Assembly: GCF_900106095.1 (NCBI RefSeq)
Contig: NZ_FNUD01000002.1
Location: forward strand, 1,323,501 to 1,387,500
DNA length: 64,000 nucleotides
Source: Pseudomonas deceptionensis
Lineage (GTDB): Bacteria; Pseudomonadota; Gammaproteobacteria; Pseudomonadales; Pseudomonadaceae
Direction: 5' to 3'
Of this stretch, positions 4,409 to 48,754 are shown one piece after another. A program made the translations under genes and the position numbers. Every line of letters starts with the position of its first letter. Position 1 is the stretch's first letter. The notes under the pieces are model-generated. The model was not told where the DNA came from, made no database searches, and worked only from the letters and a program-made list of their open reading frames with translations.

Positions 4409-6823
4409 TTAGAACTCCAGCTGCGCCGAAAATTGCACGGTGCGCGGGTCGCCAATGTAATGGCTGTTGAGCCAATATTCTTTGTTGGCCAGGTTGCTGA
4501 CGTTCATGCGCAAGGTCAGATCGTTTTCCGAAATCTTCATGCGGTAACGCGCACCGGCATCGAAGGTGGTGAACGACGGCAGTTGGTAGTCGTTGGCGAC
4601 GTCGGTGTATTGCTTGCCGGTGTAGAACGCGCCACCAGTCAGCGCAAGGCCGGGGACGGTATTGATGTCATATTCGGCGTAGACCTTGGCCAGTTGTTTG
4701 GCCACATCCACCGGGGCGTTGCCATCGTTGGCCTTGGAGTCGGCGTCCTTGACCTTCGGATCAAGCAGGGTAAAACCGCCTACCACCGTCAACTCTGGTG
4801 TGACCTTGCCGGTTACGCTGAACTCCAGTCCGTTGTTCACCTGCTTGCCGCTTTCGGTGTAGGTCATCGTTTCGTTGAGGAAACCGTTAGGCTTTTCGAT
4901 GTTGAACAAGGCCAGGGTAAAGAGTGTTTCGCCCACGGTGGCCTTGGCGCCTACTTCGTATTGCTTGCTGACTTGGGGCGCAAATATTTCGCCTGCGTTG
5001 ATTGCGTTCCAAGGAGCCGTTCCACCTGCTTGTAGCCCTTCAATGTAAGTGGCATAGGTGGTCAGCCAAGGCACAGGTTTGTAGATAAGCGATACGCTGG
5101 GCGAAGTTTTGCTCTCGTCGTAGCGGGTTTTCTTCTCAGGCGTGGAGTAGATGAAGTCATTGGCGTAAGACTTGATCTGGGTGCGGGTCACGCCGAGGAT
5201 GCTCGACCATTGATCGTTGAACGTGATGACATCGCCGATCAGGAAGTTGTTGGTTTCGGAGGTGCTCGCCAGCCGCTGATTGCCATTGCCGATCGAGTAG
5301 CTGGGTTTGCCGACTTGCTCACTGCTGCCAAACGGCAAGGCGCCGCCGCCCACGTCGACGTATTGCGGAGGTGAGCTGGGAACATGGTCTTCGTATTGAC
5401 GAATTCGCGAGTTATTACCCTGATAGCCCAAGGTCATCTTGTGGCCAATAGAACCTGTCGCAAAGGCGGCATCCAGGAACAGGTAGGCGGAGTTCTCGAC
5501 ATGTTCAATCGGCGCGAAGGCGTACAGCGGCTGGGTGTAAACCCCGGGGCTGGAGACTGTCGGGCCGGTGTAGGTGTTTTCTTCGGTGAACTTTTGGGTG
5601 GCAAAAGCCCCGCGCAGGGTGAAGGTGTCGTTCAGGCGCCACTTGGCCCGGACACCGCCCTTGTCGGTTTCGTTATCCGAAAACGACCATTTTTGGCTGT
5701 ACAGCTTGTTGTTGTCGAGCTGCGAAGCCCGTGGACGCAGAGCTTGGTCACCAAAGTACCAATAGCTGGTTAGCCCACGTATCTGGGTTTTCTTGTGCGA
5801 TGCGTCGAATTGGATTTGCAGGTCGTCGCTGACGTTCCAGTCCACGGCGAGGCTGATCAGCTCGCGGCGACGCTTCTGCATGTCGATGGCGGTTTCGCCG
5901 TCTTGAGTCAGCAAGTTCAGGCGATAGGCGAATTTGCCTTCATCGTCGATTTTGCCGCCGAAGTCGCCGTGCAAGTAATAGTTCTCACCACCGGCATTGC
6001 CCAGGGTCACGCTGCGATAGTTTTCGTAGGTTGGGCGTTTAAGCACGTAGTTGGCCAAGCCGCCGGGTGAGGCGGGGCCATACAAAAAACCGGTAAGGCC
6101 GGTGATAACTTCCAGTTGTTCGGTTTCTTCCAGGTAGTTGCCCGCATCGGCGAGGGTGGAAAAACGCAAACCGTCGTTGGCAATGTTCAGGTTGCCTGCG
6201 CCACTGAAGCCGCGAATGTTCACTGCGCTGGCATAGCCCGCACCGGTGGGGGAAAACATCTGAGTGAACGGGTTGCGCTTGAACACGTCGTCCAGTGAGG
6301 TGGCCTGCATGTTTTTGAGCAGGGCCTGGGAGGTGACGCTCATGGAGTACGGCGTGTCTTGCAGCTTCATCCCGCCCAGAGCGCCGACGTTGCTGAGGTT
6401 TTCGCTGACGTAACCGGCCGCTTCCGAGCCTTCTGCCACCGCACTGGCGTTGATGTTCACGTCGCCCAGGGTCAAGGCACCTTCAACCACGGGCACCAGG
6501 GTGTAACTGCCGCTGCCGCTCTGTTGCAACTGCAACCCACTCCCCCGCAACGCTTCGCGCAGTGCCGTTGTGGCTTCGAGCTGGCCGTTGACCGGCGCCG
6601 ATGTTTTGCCCGCCAGCAGGGACGAGTTGATGGCCAGGGTGATGCCGGCCTGGCTGGCAATCTGGTTCAGGGTGGCCGCCAAAGGTCCGGATGGCAGGTT
6701 GTAGCTGCGCGCAGACGATGCCTGCTCGGCCGCGATCAGCAGGGTGCTGGTCAGCGGGGCGCTGAGGGCAATGGCGACGGCTAACAGGCTGGGGCGCAAA
6801 AACGTGTCGAGGGTGCGGGACAT
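4409..6823 (-). CDS. TonB-dependent siderophore receptor with signalling domain
   Basis: An 804-residue outer-membrane receptor for a ferric siderophore. After a signal peptide (about 1-32), residues 38-115 form an STN/secretin-TonB short domain (RSYNLPSGPLAATLNQIA), the part that speaks to a FecR-type regulator. A plug domain follows (LQDTPYSMSVTSQAL, then VNIRGFSGAGNLNIANDGL), then a 22-strand barrel ending with an aromatic residue (TVQFSAQLEF). Directly upstream on the same strand are fecR-like and fecI-like genes, so ligand binding should activate the receptor's own transcription. Its place near glcB/rarD matches the ferrichrome receptor FiuA (fiuI-fiuR-fiuA) of P. aeruginosa as I recall it. 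Ferrichrome specificity is therefore an inference, not read from the sequence. Confidence 0.93.
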   Translation of the reverse strand: MSRTLDTFLRPSLLAVAIALSAPLTSTLLIAAEQASSARSYNLPSGPLAATLNQIASQAGITLAINSSLLAGKTSAPVNGQLEATTALREALRGSGLQLQQSGSGSYTLVPVVEGALTLGDVNINASAVAEGSEAAGYVSENLSNVGALGGMKLQDTPYSMSVTSQALLKNMQATSLDDVFKRNPFTQMFSPTGAGYASAVNIRGFSGAGNLNIANDGLRFSTLADAGNYLEETEQLEVITGLTGFLYGPASPGGLANYVLKRPTYENYRSVTLGNAGGENYYLHGDFGGKIDDEGKFAYRLNLLTQDGETAIDMQKRRRELISLAVDWNVSDDLQIQFDASHKKTQIRGLTSYWYFGDQALRPRASQLDNNKLYSQKWSFSDNETDKGGVRAKWRLNDTFTLRGAFATQKFTEENTYTGPTVSSPGVYTQPLYAFAPIEHVENSAYLFLDAAFATGSIGHKMTLGYQGNNSRIRQYEDHVPSSPPQYVDVGGGALPFGSSEQVGKPSYSIGNGNQRLASTSETNNFLIGDVITFNDQWSSILGVTRTQIKSYANDFIYSTPEKKTRYDESKTSPSVSLIYKPVPWLTTYATYIEGLQAGGTAPWNAINAGEIFAPQVSKQYEVGAKATVGETLFTLALFNIEKPNGFLNETMTYTESGKQVNNGLEFSVTGKVTPELTVVGGFTLLDPKVKDADSKANDGNAPVDVAKQLAKVYAEYDINTVPGLALTGGAFYTGKQYTDVANDYQLPSFTTFDAGARYRMKISENDLTLRMNVSNLANKEYWLNSHYIGDPRTVQFSAQLEF

Positions 6824-6913
6824 TCGGCGGGTTCCTGAATGGAAATGTTTCTCAATGCCTATCTGCCGGATGAGATATGAAAAGTGATAGGGCTGATTGA
6901 AAATAATTTAGAT

Positions 6914-7891
6914 TCAGTTCGCCAAAGGCTTGGGGCTGACAGTGACCCACCACGGTGTGCGCTGCTGGATCTGTACCGGCAAGGTCGGTATCAGGGCATT
7001 GAGCGCCAGTTCGATGTTGTTCAGCGGGAAACTGCCGGTGATGCGCAGGTCGGCCACTTCGGGGTCTACGCCCAGGTGTCCCCGTTGGTAGCGATTGAGT
7101 TCGCTGACCATGTCGGCCAGGCGCACGTTGTCGAGTACCAGCATGCCGCGTGTCCAGGCGTCGGCCCCGGGGCTGACGGCCAGCATCTGGCCAAGCCGGT
7201 CGCGGTGCATCAGCACTTGCTGGCCTTCGTTGTACACGGTCAGCTCGACGCTGTTTTCAGGGTGCGCTTCGACCCGCGATTGCAGCACGCTCAGGCGCGT
7301 GCCGTCGTCTTCGCGCTTGACCATGAACCGTGTGCCCAATGCCCGCAGGCTGCCATCGCGGGTTTGTACGATAAACGGTCGGGGATCGCCATGGCCGGTC
7401 TCAACCATGATTTCGCCTTCTTGCAGGATGATTCGCCGGGTCGTGTCATCAAACCGCACATCGACTGCGCTGTGGGTATTGAGGTTTAGCAGCGTGCCAT
7501 CCGCCAGTCGCAACTGGCGCTGTTCACCGGTGGCGGTGCGTTGGTCGGCCATCCAGTAATCGACCGGCAGGTAATTTTTGCCGGCAAACAACGCCAGCCC
7601 GCACGCCAGAGCGACACTGGCCAGGCCGCTGCCGATTTTGCGCACCCGTTCCTGCACGCCGGTGCGGGCTTTGAGCAAGGCATTACGTGCCGGGACGCTG
7701 GCGGTGCTGAATCGGTGGTCGAGCATGCCCAGTTGCAGCCAGGCGCGGGCGTGTTCGTCGTTGGCGCTGTACCACTTGGTGAATTCGGCCTGCTCCACGG
7801 CGCTGCCATTGCCGCAATCCAGGCACAGCTGCCATGCGATGGCGGCGTCCAGCACCTGGGCCGAGACCGGTTTCGAGCTGACCGGCTTCAT
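6914..7891 (-). CDS. FecR-type anti-sigma / sigma regulator
   Basis: A 325-residue cytoplasmic-membrane regulator that relays the receptor signal to the adjacent sigma factor. The N-terminal cytoplasmic part resembles DUF4880 (LDAAIAWQLCLDCGNGS, ARAWLQLGMLDHRF). One membrane segment lies near residues 90-110 (GLASVALACGLALFAG). The periplasmic FecR domain follows (RQLRLADGTLLNLNTHSAVD, then EGEIMVETGHGDPRPFIVQT), and a C-terminal DUF4974-like part is present (ITGSFPLNNIELALNAL). The ATG at 7891 overlaps the sigma gene's stop (ATGA); a GTG at 7921 is possible but would run deep into the sigma gene. The receptor gene begins 90 bases downstream. Confidence 0.92.
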   Translation of the reverse strand: MKPVSSKPVSAQVLDAAIAWQLCLDCGNGSAVEQAEFTKWYSANDEHARAWLQLGMLDHRFSTASVPARNALLKARTGVQERVRKIGSGLASVALACGLALFAGKNYLPVDYWMADQRTATGEQRQLRLADGTLLNLNTHSAVDVRFDDTTRRIILQEGEIMVETGHGDPRPFIVQTRDGSLRALGTRFMVKREDDGTRLSVLQSRVEAHPENSVELTVYNEGQQVLMHRDRLGQMLAVSPGADAWTRGMLVLDNVRLADMVSELNRYQRGHLGVDPEVADLRITGSFPLNNIELALNALIPTLPVQIQQRTPWWVTVSPKPLAN

Positions 7892-8424
7892 GTCGGCTCG
7901 CCATACAGCGCGATGTAGCACTGGCGGATGCCCTGGGCCAGGTACTGGCGCACGCGGGGCACCGATACGCCCAGGCGCTCGGCGATGTCAGCGTGGGTCA
8001 GGCCGTCGATGCGGCTATAGAGGAAGGCTGCGCGGGACTTGCTGGACAGCTTGCCCAGCAGGCGGTCGATGGCCTTGAGGTCTTCGAGGATCAGTTGCTG
8101 TTCTTCGGGCGAGGGTTGCTCGGCCTCGGGGATCAGCATCAGTTCGTTGAGCCAGGCCTGCTCCAGTGCGGCGCGGCGAAAGTAGTCAAATAGCAGCCCT
8201 TTGGCGATGGCCGCCAAAAAGGCTCGGGGCTCGCGGGGGGCTTGCAGTTCGGTGCGGCCCAGAAGGCGCAAAAAGGTGTCCTGGCTCAGGTCTTCAGCCC
8301 GCTGCGGGCAGGCCACGTTGCGCCGCAACCACGACAGCAGCCAGCCGCGATGGTCGCGATAAAGCGCTCCAACCAGCTCACTGTGTGGGTTTTGGACTGA
8401 CGACAAAGACTTCACCAACTGCAA
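7888..8424 (-). CDS. FecI-type ECF sigma factor for iron uptake
   Basis: A 178-residue iron-starvation sigma factor. Region 2 is seen as LVGALYRDHRGWLLSWLRR, CPQRAEDLSQDTFLRLL and AFLAAIAKGLLFDYFRR; region 4 as KLSSKSRAAFLYSRIDGLTH and AERLGVSVPRVRQYL. This is the FecI/PvdS-type signature. It is followed with a 4-base overlap by the fecR-like gene, and then by the receptor, the classical order sigma-regulator-receptor. A Fur-box-like sequence just upstream (about 8436-8453) would make it iron-repressed. It most likely drives the receptor promoter in the 90-base gap at 6824-6913. Confidence 0.93.
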   Translation of the reverse strand: MQLVKSLSSVQNPHSELVGALYRDHRGWLLSWLRRNVACPQRAEDLSQDTFLRLLGRTELQAPREPRAFLAAIAKGLLFDYFRRAALEQAWLNELMLIPEAEQPSPEEQQLILEDLKAIDRLLGKLSSKSRAAFLYSRIDGLTHADIAERLGVSVPRVRQYLAQGIRQCYIALYGEPT

Positions 8425-8435
8425 GTTTTAACTAA

Positions 8436-8453
8436 CGATAATTATTCGCGATT
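8436..8453 (-). promoter_or_regulatory. Possible Fur box upstream of the FecI-type gene
   Basis: CGATAATTATTCGCGATT has a strong GATAAT half and a weaker second half compared with the Fur consensus GATAATGATAATCATTATC. It lies 12-29 bases before the sigma start codon, where Fur sites of iron-starvation sigma genes are usually found. Confidence 0.45.
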
Positions 8454-8509
8454 GTGTCAGAGGGAATGGTCCTACGCAATTGACGCTCATCGGATGGAGG
8501 CAAAGAGCC

Positions 8510-8609
8510 TGTAGCCGCTGCCGGAGGCTGCGATAAGGGCCGCAGGACCTTCGCTCTTTGAAAGGCATGACCCCTTCGGGCTCAATCGCAGCCTGCGGCA
8601 GCGGCTACA
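8510..8609. repeat. REP palindrome pair, family A
   Basis: The arms TGTAGCCGCTGCCGGAGGCT and ATCGCAGCCTGCGGCAGCGG/CTACA are near-perfect inverted copies separated by about 50 bases. It sits between the fecI promoter region and the end of the exonuclease gene. This is the most frequent repeat of the window (seven copies). Confidence 0.9.
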
Positions 8610-8622
8610 GGGCGTGTGTCAT

Positions 8623-9333
8623 TTAAAAACTGTGCACCTGCTTGCGCCGCTGCCACTGGTTCAACCGTTGTTGCAGGGTCTGTGGGCTGTCGATGCCCTG
8701 GGCGCGGGCGCGGCTGAACAGGATCAACGCCAGTTCGGCAGTGGCCAGGGCGTCGGCGCTGGCGTTGTGGCGGTCTTCGATCTGGAGGCTGAAGTGGTTG
8801 ATCCACTGGTCCAGCCCGGCGTCCCGCCAATTGACCTGCGGGCAAAGCATCGGGGCCAGTGCGGCTACATCCAGGAACGGGTGTTGCAGACGGTAGCCCA
8901 GGCTTTCTTTAAGGGCGCGGGTAAGCATGTGCTGGTCAAACGGCGCATGGAACGCCAGCAGAGGGCTGTCACCAACAAAGGCCATGAAATCGAGCAGGGC
9001 ATCTGCCGGATCGCTGCCCGCGGCAATGGCGGCGGGCCCCAGCCCATGCAGCAGCACGCTGGGGTTGAGGGGGGCGTCCGGGCGCAGAAAGGTGCGTTCA
9101 AACGCCTGGCCCAAGTCGATCGCGCCATCTTCAATCACCACCGCGCCAATCGACAGCACTTGATCGCGGTTGAGGTTCAGGCCGCTGGTTTCCAGGTCAA
9201 CCACGACCCAGCGCTGCTTGCGCAGTGTGGTGTCGCTCAACCCCGATGCGGGCGGCAGTTGCAGCAGGTGTTGTTGCTGCTCAGGGCTCAGCACCGGTTT
9301 TTTGCGCGGCAACAACCATGACAGCAGGCTCAT
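8623..9333 (-). CDS. DnaQ-like 3'-5' exonuclease domain protein
   Basis: A 236-residue single-domain exonuclease of the DEDD/RNase T superfamily. Exo I is VVVDLETSGLN near residue 45, Exo II is AFHAPFDQHML near 155, and the Exo III region is near HNASADALATAELALIL (the HxxxxD type, DEDDh). It probably trims single-stranded DNA or RNA ends in the cytoplasm. Its ATG overlaps the stop of the upstream CBS/DUF294 gene (ATGA at 9330-9333), so the two are coupled. The same pair is found beside acetate permease genes in P. aeruginosa as I recall, but no permease is present here. Confidence 0.9.
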   Translation of the reverse strand: MSLLSWLLPRKKPVLSPEQQQHLLQLPPASGLSDTTLRKQRWVVVDLETSGLNLNRDQVLSIGAVVIEDGAIDLGQAFERTFLRPDAPLNPSVLLHGLGPAAIAAGSDPADALLDFMAFVGDSPLLAFHAPFDQHMLTRALKESLGYRLQHPFLDVAALAPMLCPQVNWRDAGLDQWINHFSLQIEDRHNASADALATAELALILFSRARAQGIDSPQTLQQRLNQWQRRKQVHSF

Positions 9334-43858: not shown

Positions 43859-46789
43859 TTATAACGATGGTTTCTCGGTAGTGCTATCCGAAAAGTCTGA
43901 AATAAACAGGCGAAGGAAAGTTGCTGCGAATTCTTCTGCAGGTAAAGGCGCGCTGACGATGCGGCCCTGGATTTGTTCGCAGCCGGCTTTGGTCAGAAAA
44001 TCCTGTTGTGCCCGAGTTTCGACACCTTCGGCAATGATGGTGATTTGCATGCTGCGCCCCAGTGCAATGATGGCGCGGACGATCGCGGCATCGTGGGCGT
44101 CATTGGGCAGGCCCCGGATAAATGACTGATCGATTTTCAGTGTGTCCAGCGGCAAATGCTTGAGGTAGCTGAGGGAGGAGTAGCCGGTACCAAAATCGTC
44201 AATGGACAGTTGCACGCCTAGCTGTTTGAGCTGGAGCAGTACCACAAACGCTTCTTCGGTCTGGCTCGTGATGACGTTTTCGGTGATTTTCAGCTGTAAG
44301 CAACCCGGCTTGAGCTCGTAGGTTTTAAGTAACTGATGGATACGCGCCAGCAGTTTTGGACTGTGCAGTTGAGAGCTCGCCAGGTTGACGGATATCGGCC
44401 CAAAGGGCTCGTAAATCTGATGCCAGGCATGCAGTTGTTGGCAGACGCGTTCGAGCATCCAATCGCCTATTTGAATGATCATGCCGTTTTCTTCGGCCAG
44501 ATGAATAAAGCGCTCGGGCGGGATTTCTCCGAGTTCAGGGTGGTTCCAGCGAATCAGTGCTTTGGCGCCGACCAGGCTGAGGTCGCGCAAGCTGATTTTA
44601 GGTTGATAGAACAGTGCCAGTTGGTCGCGCTCCAGCGCCCGGCGCAGATCCTGCTCCAGAGAGACGCGCGCACTGGCCTGGGCGCTCAGGTCCTGGGTGT
44701 AGCGTTCGACGCGGTTGCGACCTTTGAGTTTGGAGCGGTACATCGCGGTATCGGCATTCTTGATGAGGGTGGCTACTTCGGTGCCGTCTTCCGGATACAC
44801 GCTGATGCCAATGCTGGCGCTGATAAACAGTTCATGCTCGCCTGCCGGGAAGGGGGCGCTGAAACACGCCAGGAGCTTGTCGGCGATGAGGTCTGCATCA
44901 CGGGGGTGTTTGAGCCCGGGCAGCAAGATAATGAATTCATCGCCGCCCAGGCGGGCAACGGTGTCGATATCGCGCAACTGTTCTTTGAGGCGGGTTGCAA
45001 TGCCATTCAGCAGCAGGTCGCCGACCGGGTGGCCGAGGCTGTCATTTATGTTCTTGAAGCGGTCCAGGTCCAGAAACAAGACGGCGCCGTGCTGGCCATT
45101 GCGCCTCTGGTCCGTGAGCACCTCGCGCAGCCGACGCTCAAACAGCAAACGGTTGGGCAGGTTGGTCAGCGGGTCGTGGTGGGCTTGGTGGTCAAGGCGC
45201 GACTGGGCATGTTTGAGGCTGGAGATGTCAGAAAATACGCCTACAAAATGGGTCGCCAGGTTGTCGCTGTTGCGTACGGTGCTGATGGTCATCCAGTTGG
45301 GGTGTATTTCACCGTTTTTGCGTTTGTTGCTGATTTCGCCCTGCCAGTGGCCATCTTTTGAAAGTTGATGCCACATCTCGGCAAAGAACAGGCTGTTGTG
45401 CTGGCCGGAAGCCATAATGCGCGGAGTCTGGCCAAGGACTTCGCTCTCGCTGTAACCGGTAATTTCGGTGAAGGCCCGATTCACCGCGGTGATGACTTGC
45501 TGGGGGTCGGTGATGACGATGCCTTCAGCCGTACTCTCAAAGACGGTGGCCGTTTGTTGCAGTTTCTCCTGCATCTGATGGCGCTCTGTGATGTCGCGCG
45601 CGATGGTCAATATGCAGTTCTCGGTACCGATCATCAGTGGGTAGCTGGAGATTTCACAGAGGCGGATTCGTCCGTCCCTGTGTCGGATGCTGCACCTGAA
45701 GTCACGGGCAAAGCCGTTTTCCTCCAGTCGCCTCAGAAGTTCAACGCGTTGCTCAAGATCGACCCACAGGTGCAGGTCCAGTGTTGAATGGTGCAGGGAA
45801 GCGTCGCTGTCATAACCACTGAGCTGGCTAAAGCCTTCGTTTGTCTCGATCATCAGGCCGTCGCTTTGTCGAGTTATCAAAAGGCCATCTGGAGAGGCGT
45901 GGAACGCTTTGGCGAACTTTTCTTCGGAGAGGCGCAAGGCTTCTTCGACCTGCTTGTTATCGCTGATGTTGATCATAAGACCGCGCAGAACGGCCTGTTG
46001 GTTGTGGGTGGTGATACTGGCTATGTCCCGCAGCCACAAGGTATTGCCGTCAGCGGTCACCACTCGATAGTCCAAGCTGTGGTTATGGCCGGCGCTGACC
46101 TCTTTATCGCGGCAGGCTTGGGCCTTGGCCTGGTCATCGGGATGCAGGATCCGGCTCCAGAACCCCGGGCTTGACCAGTCCGCGATAGGGTAGCCGAGTA
46201 AGACTTCTGCTTGGGGCGAGACATAGGTGTAGGCATCGCCGTCCAGGCGTGTCTCCCAGGCGATAGCCGAAAGGCTTTCTATCAGGCTCCTGTAGTGATA
46301 TTCGCTGCTGCGCAGCGCTTGTTCGAGGGCTTTTCGGTGGGAAATTTCATAGCTCATGCGTCGGTTGATGCGGATGACCACGATCAGTACGACGATCAAA
46401 AGCAGCGCGCCGGGGAGGATATAGAGCAGCAAGGTGCGCCACAGGGCACGGTAGTCGCCAATCCAGTGCTGCTGATTATTAGCGATTGCTCCCAGGTTGG
46501 TGTCGGGTAGTACCTTGTCAAGCAGCCAGTCGATTCTGGATTGCTCGGTCAGCTCTGATACGGCCACTTGCCGGGGGGCCGGGTACAGATGTGCATGACC
46601 GGTCGCCAGGTCAGCATAGAGCGCGCGCGGGTTACGAAACTCAAATGACGGGCGAGTGGTATCTATACCGCGGAACAGTTGAGGGTGTTTTTCGAGTCGT
46701 TGCTGCTCTTTATCACTAAACGTCAGGGCACAGGTGGCAGTGGTCCAGGCGACAAGCGACAGAAGCAGGAAAGCCAGCAATCGTGACAT
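43859..46789 (-). CDS. RmcA-like PAS-GGDEF-EAL protein with shortened sensor and altered EAL motif
   Basis: A 976-residue inner-membrane c-di-GMP protein in the position of RmcA (PA0575) next to rpoD. A signal peptide (1-22) is followed by only about 85 periplasmic residues. These begin like a bacterial solute-binding domain (LEKHPQLFRGIDTTRPSFEF) and end with its juxtamembrane tail (NNQQHWIGDYRALW). One helix follows (about 115-140; LPGALLLIVVLIVVIRI), then three PAS domains (about 160-525). The GGDEF domain keeps GGDEF at 615-619 and the RDID inhibitory site. In the EAL domain the first motif reads GAKALIRW: Lys743 replaces the metal-binding Glu. Other catalytic positions (SVNLA, TEN, DDFGTGYSS, KIDQSF, AEGVET) remain, but QGY is QGR. 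Cyclase activity is plausible and phosphodiesterase activity doubtful. Confidence 0.9.
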   Translation of the reverse strand: MSRLLAFLLLSLVAWTTATCALTFSDKEQQRLEKHPQLFRGIDTTRPSFEFRNPRALYADLATGHAHLYPAPRQVAVSELTEQSRIDWLLDKVLPDTNLGAIANNQQHWIGDYRALWRTLLLYILPGALLLIVVLIVVIRINRRMSYEISHRKALEQALRSSEYHYRSLIESLSAIAWETRLDGDAYTYVSPQAEVLLGYPIADWSSPGFWSRILHPDDQAKAQACRDKEVSAGHNHSLDYRVVTADGNTLWLRDIASITTHNQQAVLRGLMINISDNKQVEEALRLSEEKFAKAFHASPDGLLITRQSDGLMIETNEGFSQLSGYDSDASLHHSTLDLHLWVDLEQRVELLRRLEENGFARDFRCSIRHRDGRIRLCEISSYPLMIGTENCILTIARDITERHQMQEKLQQTATVFESTAEGIVITDPQQVITAVNRAFTEITGYSESEVLGQTPRIMASGQHNSLFFAEMWHQLSKDGHWQGEISNKRKNGEIHPNWMTISTVRNSDNLATHFVGVFSDISSLKHAQSRLDHQAHHDPLTNLPNRLLFERRLREVLTDQRRNGQHGAVLFLDLDRFKNINDSLGHPVGDLLLNGIATRLKEQLRDIDTVARLGGDEFIILLPGLKHPRDADLIADKLLACFSAPFPAGEHELFISASIGISVYPEDGTEVATLIKNADTAMYRSKLKGRNRVERYTQDLSAQASARVSLEQDLRRALERDQLALFYQPKISLRDLSLVGAKALIRWNHPELGEIPPERFIHLAEENGMIIQIGDWMLERVCQQLHAWHQIYEPFGPISVNLASSQLHSPKLLARIHQLLKTYELKPGCLQLKITENVITSQTEEAFVVLLQLKQLGVQLSIDDFGTGYSSLSYLKHLPLDTLKIDQSFIRGLPNDAHDAAIVRAIIALGRSMQITIIAEGVETRAQQDFLTKAGCEQIQGRIVSAPLPAEEFAATFLRLFISDFSDSTTEKPSL

Positions 46790-46906: not shown

Positions 46907-48754
<1,848 letters not shown>

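Follow-up and report, generated by a model that had tools for sequence, protein, structure and literature searches.

Two lysines at metal-ligand positions in the EAL domain of a shortened RmcA-like protein of Pseudomonas deceptionensis

The RmcA-like gene beside rpoD

The DNA analysed here, referred to as the window, is a stretch of 64,000 nucleotides from Pseudomonas deceptionensis (contig NZ_FNUD01000002.1, positions 1,323,501 to 1,387,500; genome G000 in our sets), and it carries an RmcA-like gene coding for a protein of 976 amino acids (aa). RmcA is a model dual enzyme, with GGDEF and EAL domains, that couples arginine and redox state to the maintenance of biofilms. In the window protein two of the six positions expected to bind metal in the EAL domain, 743 and 834, are occupied by lysine, and the domain is predicted to be catalytically dead. 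The features considered below are the following.

43859..46789, minus strand: RmcA-like gene, 976 aa, from the open reading frame and a domain scan; signal/N-terminus, short periplasmic stub, transmembrane segment, three PAS domains, GGDEF, EAL
46442..46726, minus strand: shortened periplasmic stub, one of the regions of the protein that change most rapidly, lacking the PF00497 binding domain
45962..46312, minus strand: first PAS domain, from the domain scan
45575..45940, minus strand: second PAS domain, from the domain scan
45218..45568, minus strand: third PAS domain, probable equivalent of PASd of RmcA, from the domain scan and a numbering offset
45326-45328, minus strand: Asn488, which would take the place of the flavin adenine dinucleotide (FAD)-binding Asn760 of P. 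aeruginosa if an offset of 272 holds
44705..45202, minus strand: GGDEF domain, residues 530-695 (PF00990, 173.2 bits), all checked catalytic residues present
44963..44974, minus strand: RDID inhibitory site, residues 606-609, from the sequence
44933..44947, minus strand: GGDEF motif, residues 615-619, from the sequence
43910..44656, minus strand: EAL domain, residues 712-960 (PF00563, 252.8 bits), predicted catalytically dead
44603..44605, minus strand: Gln729, substrate-binding Gln equivalent to RocR Q161, kept (sequence and alignment)
44561..44563, minus strand: codon 743, AAA, Lys where the Glu of EAL (RocR E175) is expected
44549..44551, minus strand: Arg747, the Arg that binds cyclic di-GMP (c-di-GMP), equivalent to RocR R179 and LapD R450, kept
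44288..44290, minus strand: codon 834, AAA, with Lys at the place of the metal-binding Glu (RocR E265)
46907-48754: rpoD, neighbour of the RmcA-like gene

Among sequences of solved structures the best match of the protein is 5m3c (E 1.3e-184, gapless alignment), which we take to be the GGDEF-EAL part of P. aeruginosa RmcA, with MorA next. In P. aeruginosa, rmcA (PA0575) lies beside rpoD (PA0576). Because the best solved match is 5m3c and the gene lies beside rpoD, we take the window protein, called RmcA-like in the initial annotation, to be an RmcA orthologue. The order of transmembrane segment, PAS, GGDEF and EAL next to rpoD is that expected of RmcA orthologues, and rpoD, dnaG and rmcA are co-located both in the window and in all 13 stretches of 9-10 kb examined from relatives.

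Two lysines in the active site and their history

The metal ligands of RocR are E175, N233, E265, D295, D296 and E352, and its substrate-binding residues include Q161 and R179 (PMC7911125). By counting from the motifs, the six ligands were mapped to residues 743, 802, 834, 864, 865 and 921 of the window protein, and Q161 and R179 to 729 and 747; the equivalence of LapD R450 with Arg747 was set at four residues past the first residue of the EAL/KVL motif. The spacing N802-K834-D864 is the same as that of N233-E265-D295 in RocR, and in the alignment residue 834 is Lys in the window protein and Glu in both 5m3c and MorA. The protein has therefore lysine at two of the six ligand positions with the other four ligands present, and lacks the complete set expected of an active EAL phosphodiesterase; we take residues 743 and 834 to lie in one and the same metal site, M1. 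A further change is R943, where QGR stands in place of the expected QGY.

The initial annotation had reported the AAA codon at position 743, together with intact GGDEF and RDID motifs, and these readings were confirmed on the minus strand. It had also held the other catalytic positions that it could locate to be present, and this stands for N802, D864, D865, K885, E921 and Q941, but the Glu of TEN that it had counted is E837, while the true ligand at 834 is Lys. Its view that the loss is specific must likewise be qualified, since Glu834 is also replaced, and at an earlier date, and, with 834 included, nine otherwise invariant EAL columns besides 743 have changed, although the overall divergence of the domain is near normal (see below).

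Loss of metal ligands combined with retention of the substrate-binding Gln and Arg (Q729 and R747 with K743 and K834) is the pattern expected of an EAL receptor, but the degenerate GGDEF domain of LapD/FimX-type receptors is not found, the checked catalytic residues being intact. In fact, all the residues examined for a cyclase (GGDEF, RxxD, D574, N582, D583, K687 and R691) are present in the window protein, and in 120 out of 120 listed homologues. Sixteen EAL domains were found in the window's genome, and the 15 others keep every catalytic residue checked.

Recurrence was assessed in 120 homologues listed out of 1407 found, residues being read, within sequence clusters, in the representatives only. 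This alignment of orthologues, the check proposed with the initial annotation, gave Glu743 in 116 of the listed proteins and Lys743 in four (P0001-P0003 and P0045). At position 834, ten carry Lys and 110 Glu. By cluster size, 405 member sequences lie behind the ten Lys834 representatives and 27 behind the four with Lys743. A further protein search brought up, among the matches listed, no Lys834 protein beyond those already known. A second set was made of the 60 best-scoring long-match loci, from 59 distinct genomes (L033 repeats L004), drawn from overlapping searches of 398, 57 and 288 genomes; one contig scan of genomes yielded two loci, one of them from another genus. In these 60 loci Lys743 is confined to the window, which shares Lys834 with G255 and G343 alone. 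Both lysines recur on other contigs in P0002, P0003 and P0045, and Lys834 is also found in six further proteins and two genomes, which refutes a sequencing or assembly error, an explanation in whose favour nothing was found and which we hold to be next to impossible.

Of the 120 listed proteins, 27 were placed in a tree (700 columns), in which all ten with Lys834 fall into a single clade with a support of 100/99, and of 98/98 when the EAL part is left out. Glu834 was thus replaced by Lys once, in a clade of the Pseudomonas fragi group. DnaG assigns the window to this group, being 98-99% identical to proteins named P. fragi, P. psychrophila and P. bubulae, as well as to others named Pseudomonas sp. 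and, in one case, P. fluorescens. Likewise, a tree of rpoD, dnaG and tsaD groups G000 with G255 and G343 (bootstrap 77). Within the clade, the window's subclade of four proteins carries Lys743 and keeps Q729, R747, N802, D864, D865, K885, E921 and Q941, and on the tree Lys743 is the later of the two lysines. The six proteins of the sister branch keep Glu743, but R747 is lost and E921 replaced by Asp in all six, D865 is replaced by Asn in four and Q729 is lost in two. Since different residues were lost in the two subclades, the same active site has degenerated along two separate routes.

A horizontal replacement of rmcA is disfavoured. The rmcA tree and that of rpoD, dnaG and tsaD agree on the branches of the P. 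fragi group, even if the species tree has a support of only 62 and 77 at two forks. However, the synonymous divergence (dS) of rmcA is about twice that of dnaG and tsaD (0.87 against 0.49 and 0.41 between G000 and G255), and between G000 and G106 it reaches 1.79, against 0.76 in dnaG and 0.99 in tsaD.

Sensory input and constraint

The initial annotation left unmentioned that the protein is a shortened RmcA, of 976 aa and without PF00497. This periplasmic solute-binding (Venus flytrap) domain is absent in the window protein and present in sister G343 (L068), and the proteins of the sister branch measure 1117-1123 aa, while 69 of the 120 listed have 1247 aa. The periplasmic domain of P. aeruginosa RmcA senses arginine (PMC12540587; PMC9028604). 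Among the 120 listed proteins it is missing from all four with Lys743 and was lost in none of the 116 others. However, PF00497 is also absent in the three other short RmcA proteins scanned (L071, L048 and L060), in which Glu743 and Glu834 are intact. It follows that loss of the domain is not tied to a dead site, and that PF00497 does not define RmcA orthology. Judging by L071 (G256), L048 (G023) and L060 (G020), loss of the periplasmic sensor seems to have happened repeatedly. In P0045, a protein of 818 aa of the Lys743 subclade known from short contigs only, the first PAS domain is also absent, and along the series the proteins measure 1247, 1123, 976 and 818 aa.

As regards the redox input, FAD-binding Asn760 lies in the PASd domain of P. 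aeruginosa RmcA, for which four PAS domains are described (PMC12540587). The offset of 272 that would place Asn488 at this position rests on the equivalence of D864/D865 with D1136/D1137 of P. aeruginosa and is assumed to hold further up the protein. Asn488 is invariant in the 32 proteins compared, and the redox input may have been kept.

Selection still holds the EAL domain, as judged from DNA in the sister pair and from proteins in the window's subclade. Between G255 and G343, both predicted EAL-dead, the EAL domain has a dS of 0.46 and a nonsynonymous divergence (dN) of 0.018, and the resulting dN/dS of 0.039 compares with 0.023 (G168-G122), 0.044 (G291-G116), 0.049 (G106-G387, where G387 is a split copy) and 0.062 (L016-L017) in intact pairs. 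Comparison of the three 976-aa proteins in the subclade of the window gives differences of 2.0-5.2% in EAL and 1.2-2.4% in GGDEF, against 11-23% in the stub and 0-21% in the transmembrane segment; with the 818-aa P0045 the differences are 10.4% in EAL, 5.4% in GGDEF and 43% in what remains of the stub. The frames are open in the window (976 aa), G255 (1118 aa) and G343 (1120 aa), and the ten listed Lys834 proteins measure 818-1123 aa, although open frames are expected there from the way protein databases are constructed. Premature stops were considered in G255 and G343 and rejected, the TAG being at position 972, at the very end.

In this group rmcA diverges fast compared with its neighbours dnaG and tsaD. 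Its dN between G000 and G255 is 0.153, against 0.006 in dnaG and 0.004 in tsaD (about 25 and 39 times as much), and between G106 and G291 it is 0.130, against 0.017 and 0.031 (about 8 and 4 times); outside the group, between G074 and G108, it equals that of dnaG (0.047 in both). Of the columns invariant in the 110 Glu834 proteins, a reference set by the choice of which column 834 itself counts as changed, the window protein has changed 10 of 136 in EAL and 2 of 98 in GGDEF. The corresponding changes in the six sister-branch proteins are 22-25 of 136 and 2-10 of 98, and ten intact proteins, each compared with the rest, have changed 0-3 of 136-139 EAL and 0-3 of 98-101 GGDEF columns. Compared with P. 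lundensis over the 249 residues of the EAL domain, the window protein differs at 53, intact G291 and G116 at 48 each, and G255 at 79. The window lineage therefore possesses a fairly normally evolving EAL domain that lost two key residues.

Possible function of the altered protein

With lysine at two of the six metal ligands, the window protein has likely lost the hydrolysis of c-di-GMP. These sequence facts are firm, and on them we base, at about even chances, the hypothesis that a phosphodiesterase was turned into a non-hydrolysing, c-di-GMP-binding regulator of an intact, predicted cyclase domain. This sequence-based reading agrees in part with the initial annotation, which had proposed a turn towards a cyclase or a sensor: the intact GGDEF domain and the lost Glu of EAL make it the best reading, but the account by a single residue was incomplete. 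Replacement of Glu834 by Lys, once in the P. fragi-group clade, was the first step, as the trees show. After the clade split, the window's subclade exchanged Glu743 for Lys and lost the periplasmic binding domain while keeping the binding residues, and its sister subclade lost R747 and E921 and, in four of six proteins, D865. With one of the two metal sites empty no hydrolysis would occur, whereas c-di-GMP may still be bound, perhaps with lysine replacing metal. Binding of guanosine triphosphate (GTP) or dimerisation of EAL could then gate GGDEF under the control of the PAS domains, so that the EAL pocket would regulate the attached GGDEF domain, the predicted maker of c-di-GMP. A bolder version, in which the protein was converted to a signal-making receptor, the two lysines replacing metal, c-di-GMP being bound uncut, the arginine sensor dropped and the sign of the output changed in a protein fed by redox state and GTP, we regard as rather unlikely; the group concerned yielded no LapD/LapG adhesin switch in the seven genomes tested.

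Known systems help to place these proposals. The window protein resembles P. aeruginosa RmcA in the order of its transmembrane, PAS, GGDEF and EAL parts, in its GGDEF and RxxD residues and in the probable place of the FAD-binding Asn, and differs from it in Lys743 and Lys834, in the absence of the arginine-binding domain and in having three PAS domains instead of four. Binding of GTP to GGDEF enables the EAL domain of P. aeruginosa RmcA to take up c-di-GMP and to dimerise, and the D1136N/D1137N variant loses phosphodiesterase turnover and forms a little c-di-GMP (PMC7825114). MorA and RbdA share the dual GGDEF-EAL architecture and the link to GTP but, unlike what is predicted here, phosphodiesterase activity has been shown for both (PMC7825114). 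The RmcA proteins of the sister branch (G255, G343) share Lys834 with the window protein, as well as an EAL domain that is conserved and predicted to be dead, and differ in keeping Glu743 and, in G343, the periplasmic domain. In LapD the EAL motif begins with Lys (KVL), and the domain binds c-di-GMP (PMC3032553). The likeness extends to the Arg of the c-di-GMP site four residues on, but LapD keeps the equivalent of Glu834, loses both equivalents of Asp 864/865 and has RGGEF in place of GGDEF. Of the three LapD homologues fetched, two have KVL and the third KVI (read by eye, the automatic alignment being one residue off at this motif), and all three carry RGGEF, with changes at most of the remaining cyclase residues that were compared. 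No LapD or LapG domain was found in the window's genome, and since the N-terminal domain was not found, the GGDEF domain is intact and the dead sites differ, we take the window protein not to be a LapD. In a scan of G000 and 11 relatives, none of the seven P. fragi-group genomes gave a match to LapD_MoxY_N (PF16448) or to the LapG-type peptidase (PF06035), whereas all five other Pseudomonas genomes, which served as positive control, carry the two side by side; the P. fragi group seems to lack the LapD/LapG adhesin switch.

The main rival is a pure receptor of the LapD/FimX kind, in which EAL would bind c-di-GMP and signal to a partner, with GGDEF acting as a GTP switch without net synthesis. 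It is consistent with the Lys at the same position in LapD, with the retention of Q729 and R747 in the window's subclade, with the gating of EAL by GTP on GGDEF in RmcA (PMC7825114) and with a GGDEF domain under slightly weaker constraint in the EAL-dead sister pair than in pairs with intact EAL residues. However, the GGDEF and RxxD residues kept throughout the listed homologues, as opposed to the RGGEF of all three LapD homologues, argue against it, and we consider it possible but less than probable. A decaying gene on its way to a pseudogene, with its sensor and active site gone and the rest drifting, would account for the lost periplasmic domain, the fast protein divergence and the split copy in G387; it is improbable, given the open frames in the window, G255, G343 and nine further Lys834 proteins from databases, the low dN/dS of EAL in the dead pair, and EAL and GGDEF domains that, in the window's subclade, vary much less than the stub. 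Even less credible is continued phosphodiesterase activity at an unusual metal site: N802, D864, D865, K885, E921 and Q941 are all present, deviating EAL signatures can work, and the rule of PMC12900916 returns "uncertain", but two of the six metal ligands are charge-reversed and the Glu of EAL serves as an inactivating position (PMC7911125, PMC12900916).

Several points weigh against the regulator hypothesis that we favour. The cyclase activity of P. aeruginosa RmcA is weak and was termed spurious, its GGDEF domain being a GTP switch (PMC7825114), and by analogy GTP binding may be the reason why GGDEF is conserved. The dN/dS of GGDEF is 0.068 in the EAL-dead pair G255-G343, against 0.012, 0.028, 0.027 and 0.051 in intact pairs, which suggests the opposite of what is expected of a newly important cyclase and weakens the notion of a raised constraint on GGDEF once EAL is dead. 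Constraint in the window's own subclade was judged from protein differences only, with DNA-based dN/dS for the sister pair only. The excess of changed columns in EAL over GGDEF in the window protein is not significant (Fisher p = 0.08), nor is the presence of two of the six ligand columns among the ten changed ones (p = 0.06); faster evolution of its EAL domain is hardly apparent against P. lundensis, and this claim is weakened, as is, by the intact short RmcA proteins, a coupling of the loss of the periplasmic domain to the loss of catalysis. The full-length AlphaFold model is poor, with a predicted local distance difference test (pLDDT) of 59, a predicted template modelling score (pTM) of 0.39 and a GGDEF part below 50 pLDDT, perhaps owing to a shallow alignment of close relatives, and nothing was drawn from it. 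Also, in the relative G387 (L072, P. lundensis-like), with its Glu intact, rmcA (5768-9143) is split inside EAL into frames of 935 and 203 aa; this is a draft assembly and an error is possible. An rdar morphotype is read as raised c-di-GMP. Replacement of the EAL Glu by Ala is used as an inactivating control, and two GGDEF-EAL proteins carrying it gave rdar morphotypes (PMC12900916), a point in favour of the hypothesis. Functional EAL domains with partly deviating signatures exist, however, and the rule applied in the same paper requires loss of the catalytic base in EGVE before an EAL domain is termed inactive (PMC12900916). By this rule only the sister branch would be inactive, and the window protein, with E921 kept, is "uncertain".

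Evolution towards inactive or receptor EAL domains is regularly identified (PMC12900916), and dead EAL domains serving as receptors are already known from LapD and FimX. What is new here is the route of loss, the pair of lysines and the fact that the history can be followed in RmcA. No account of a degenerate RmcA was found in the literature searched, and RmcA does not occur in the available portion of the P. fragi D12 paper (PMC13188923). For annotation, it should be borne in mind that Pfam still recognises three predicted dead domains as EAL, at about 234 to 253 bits, and that the name "bifunctional diguanylate cyclase/phosphodiesterase", carried by intact relatives, would be misleading if applied here. 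The P. fragi group and its relatives offer a natural series, from intact proteins (P. lundensis, P. helleri) to those with one lysine and a degraded pocket (G255/G343) and to the window protein, with two lysines and the binding residues kept, which makes testable the route by which hydrolysis is lost, the use made of the dead domain and the sign of the net output.

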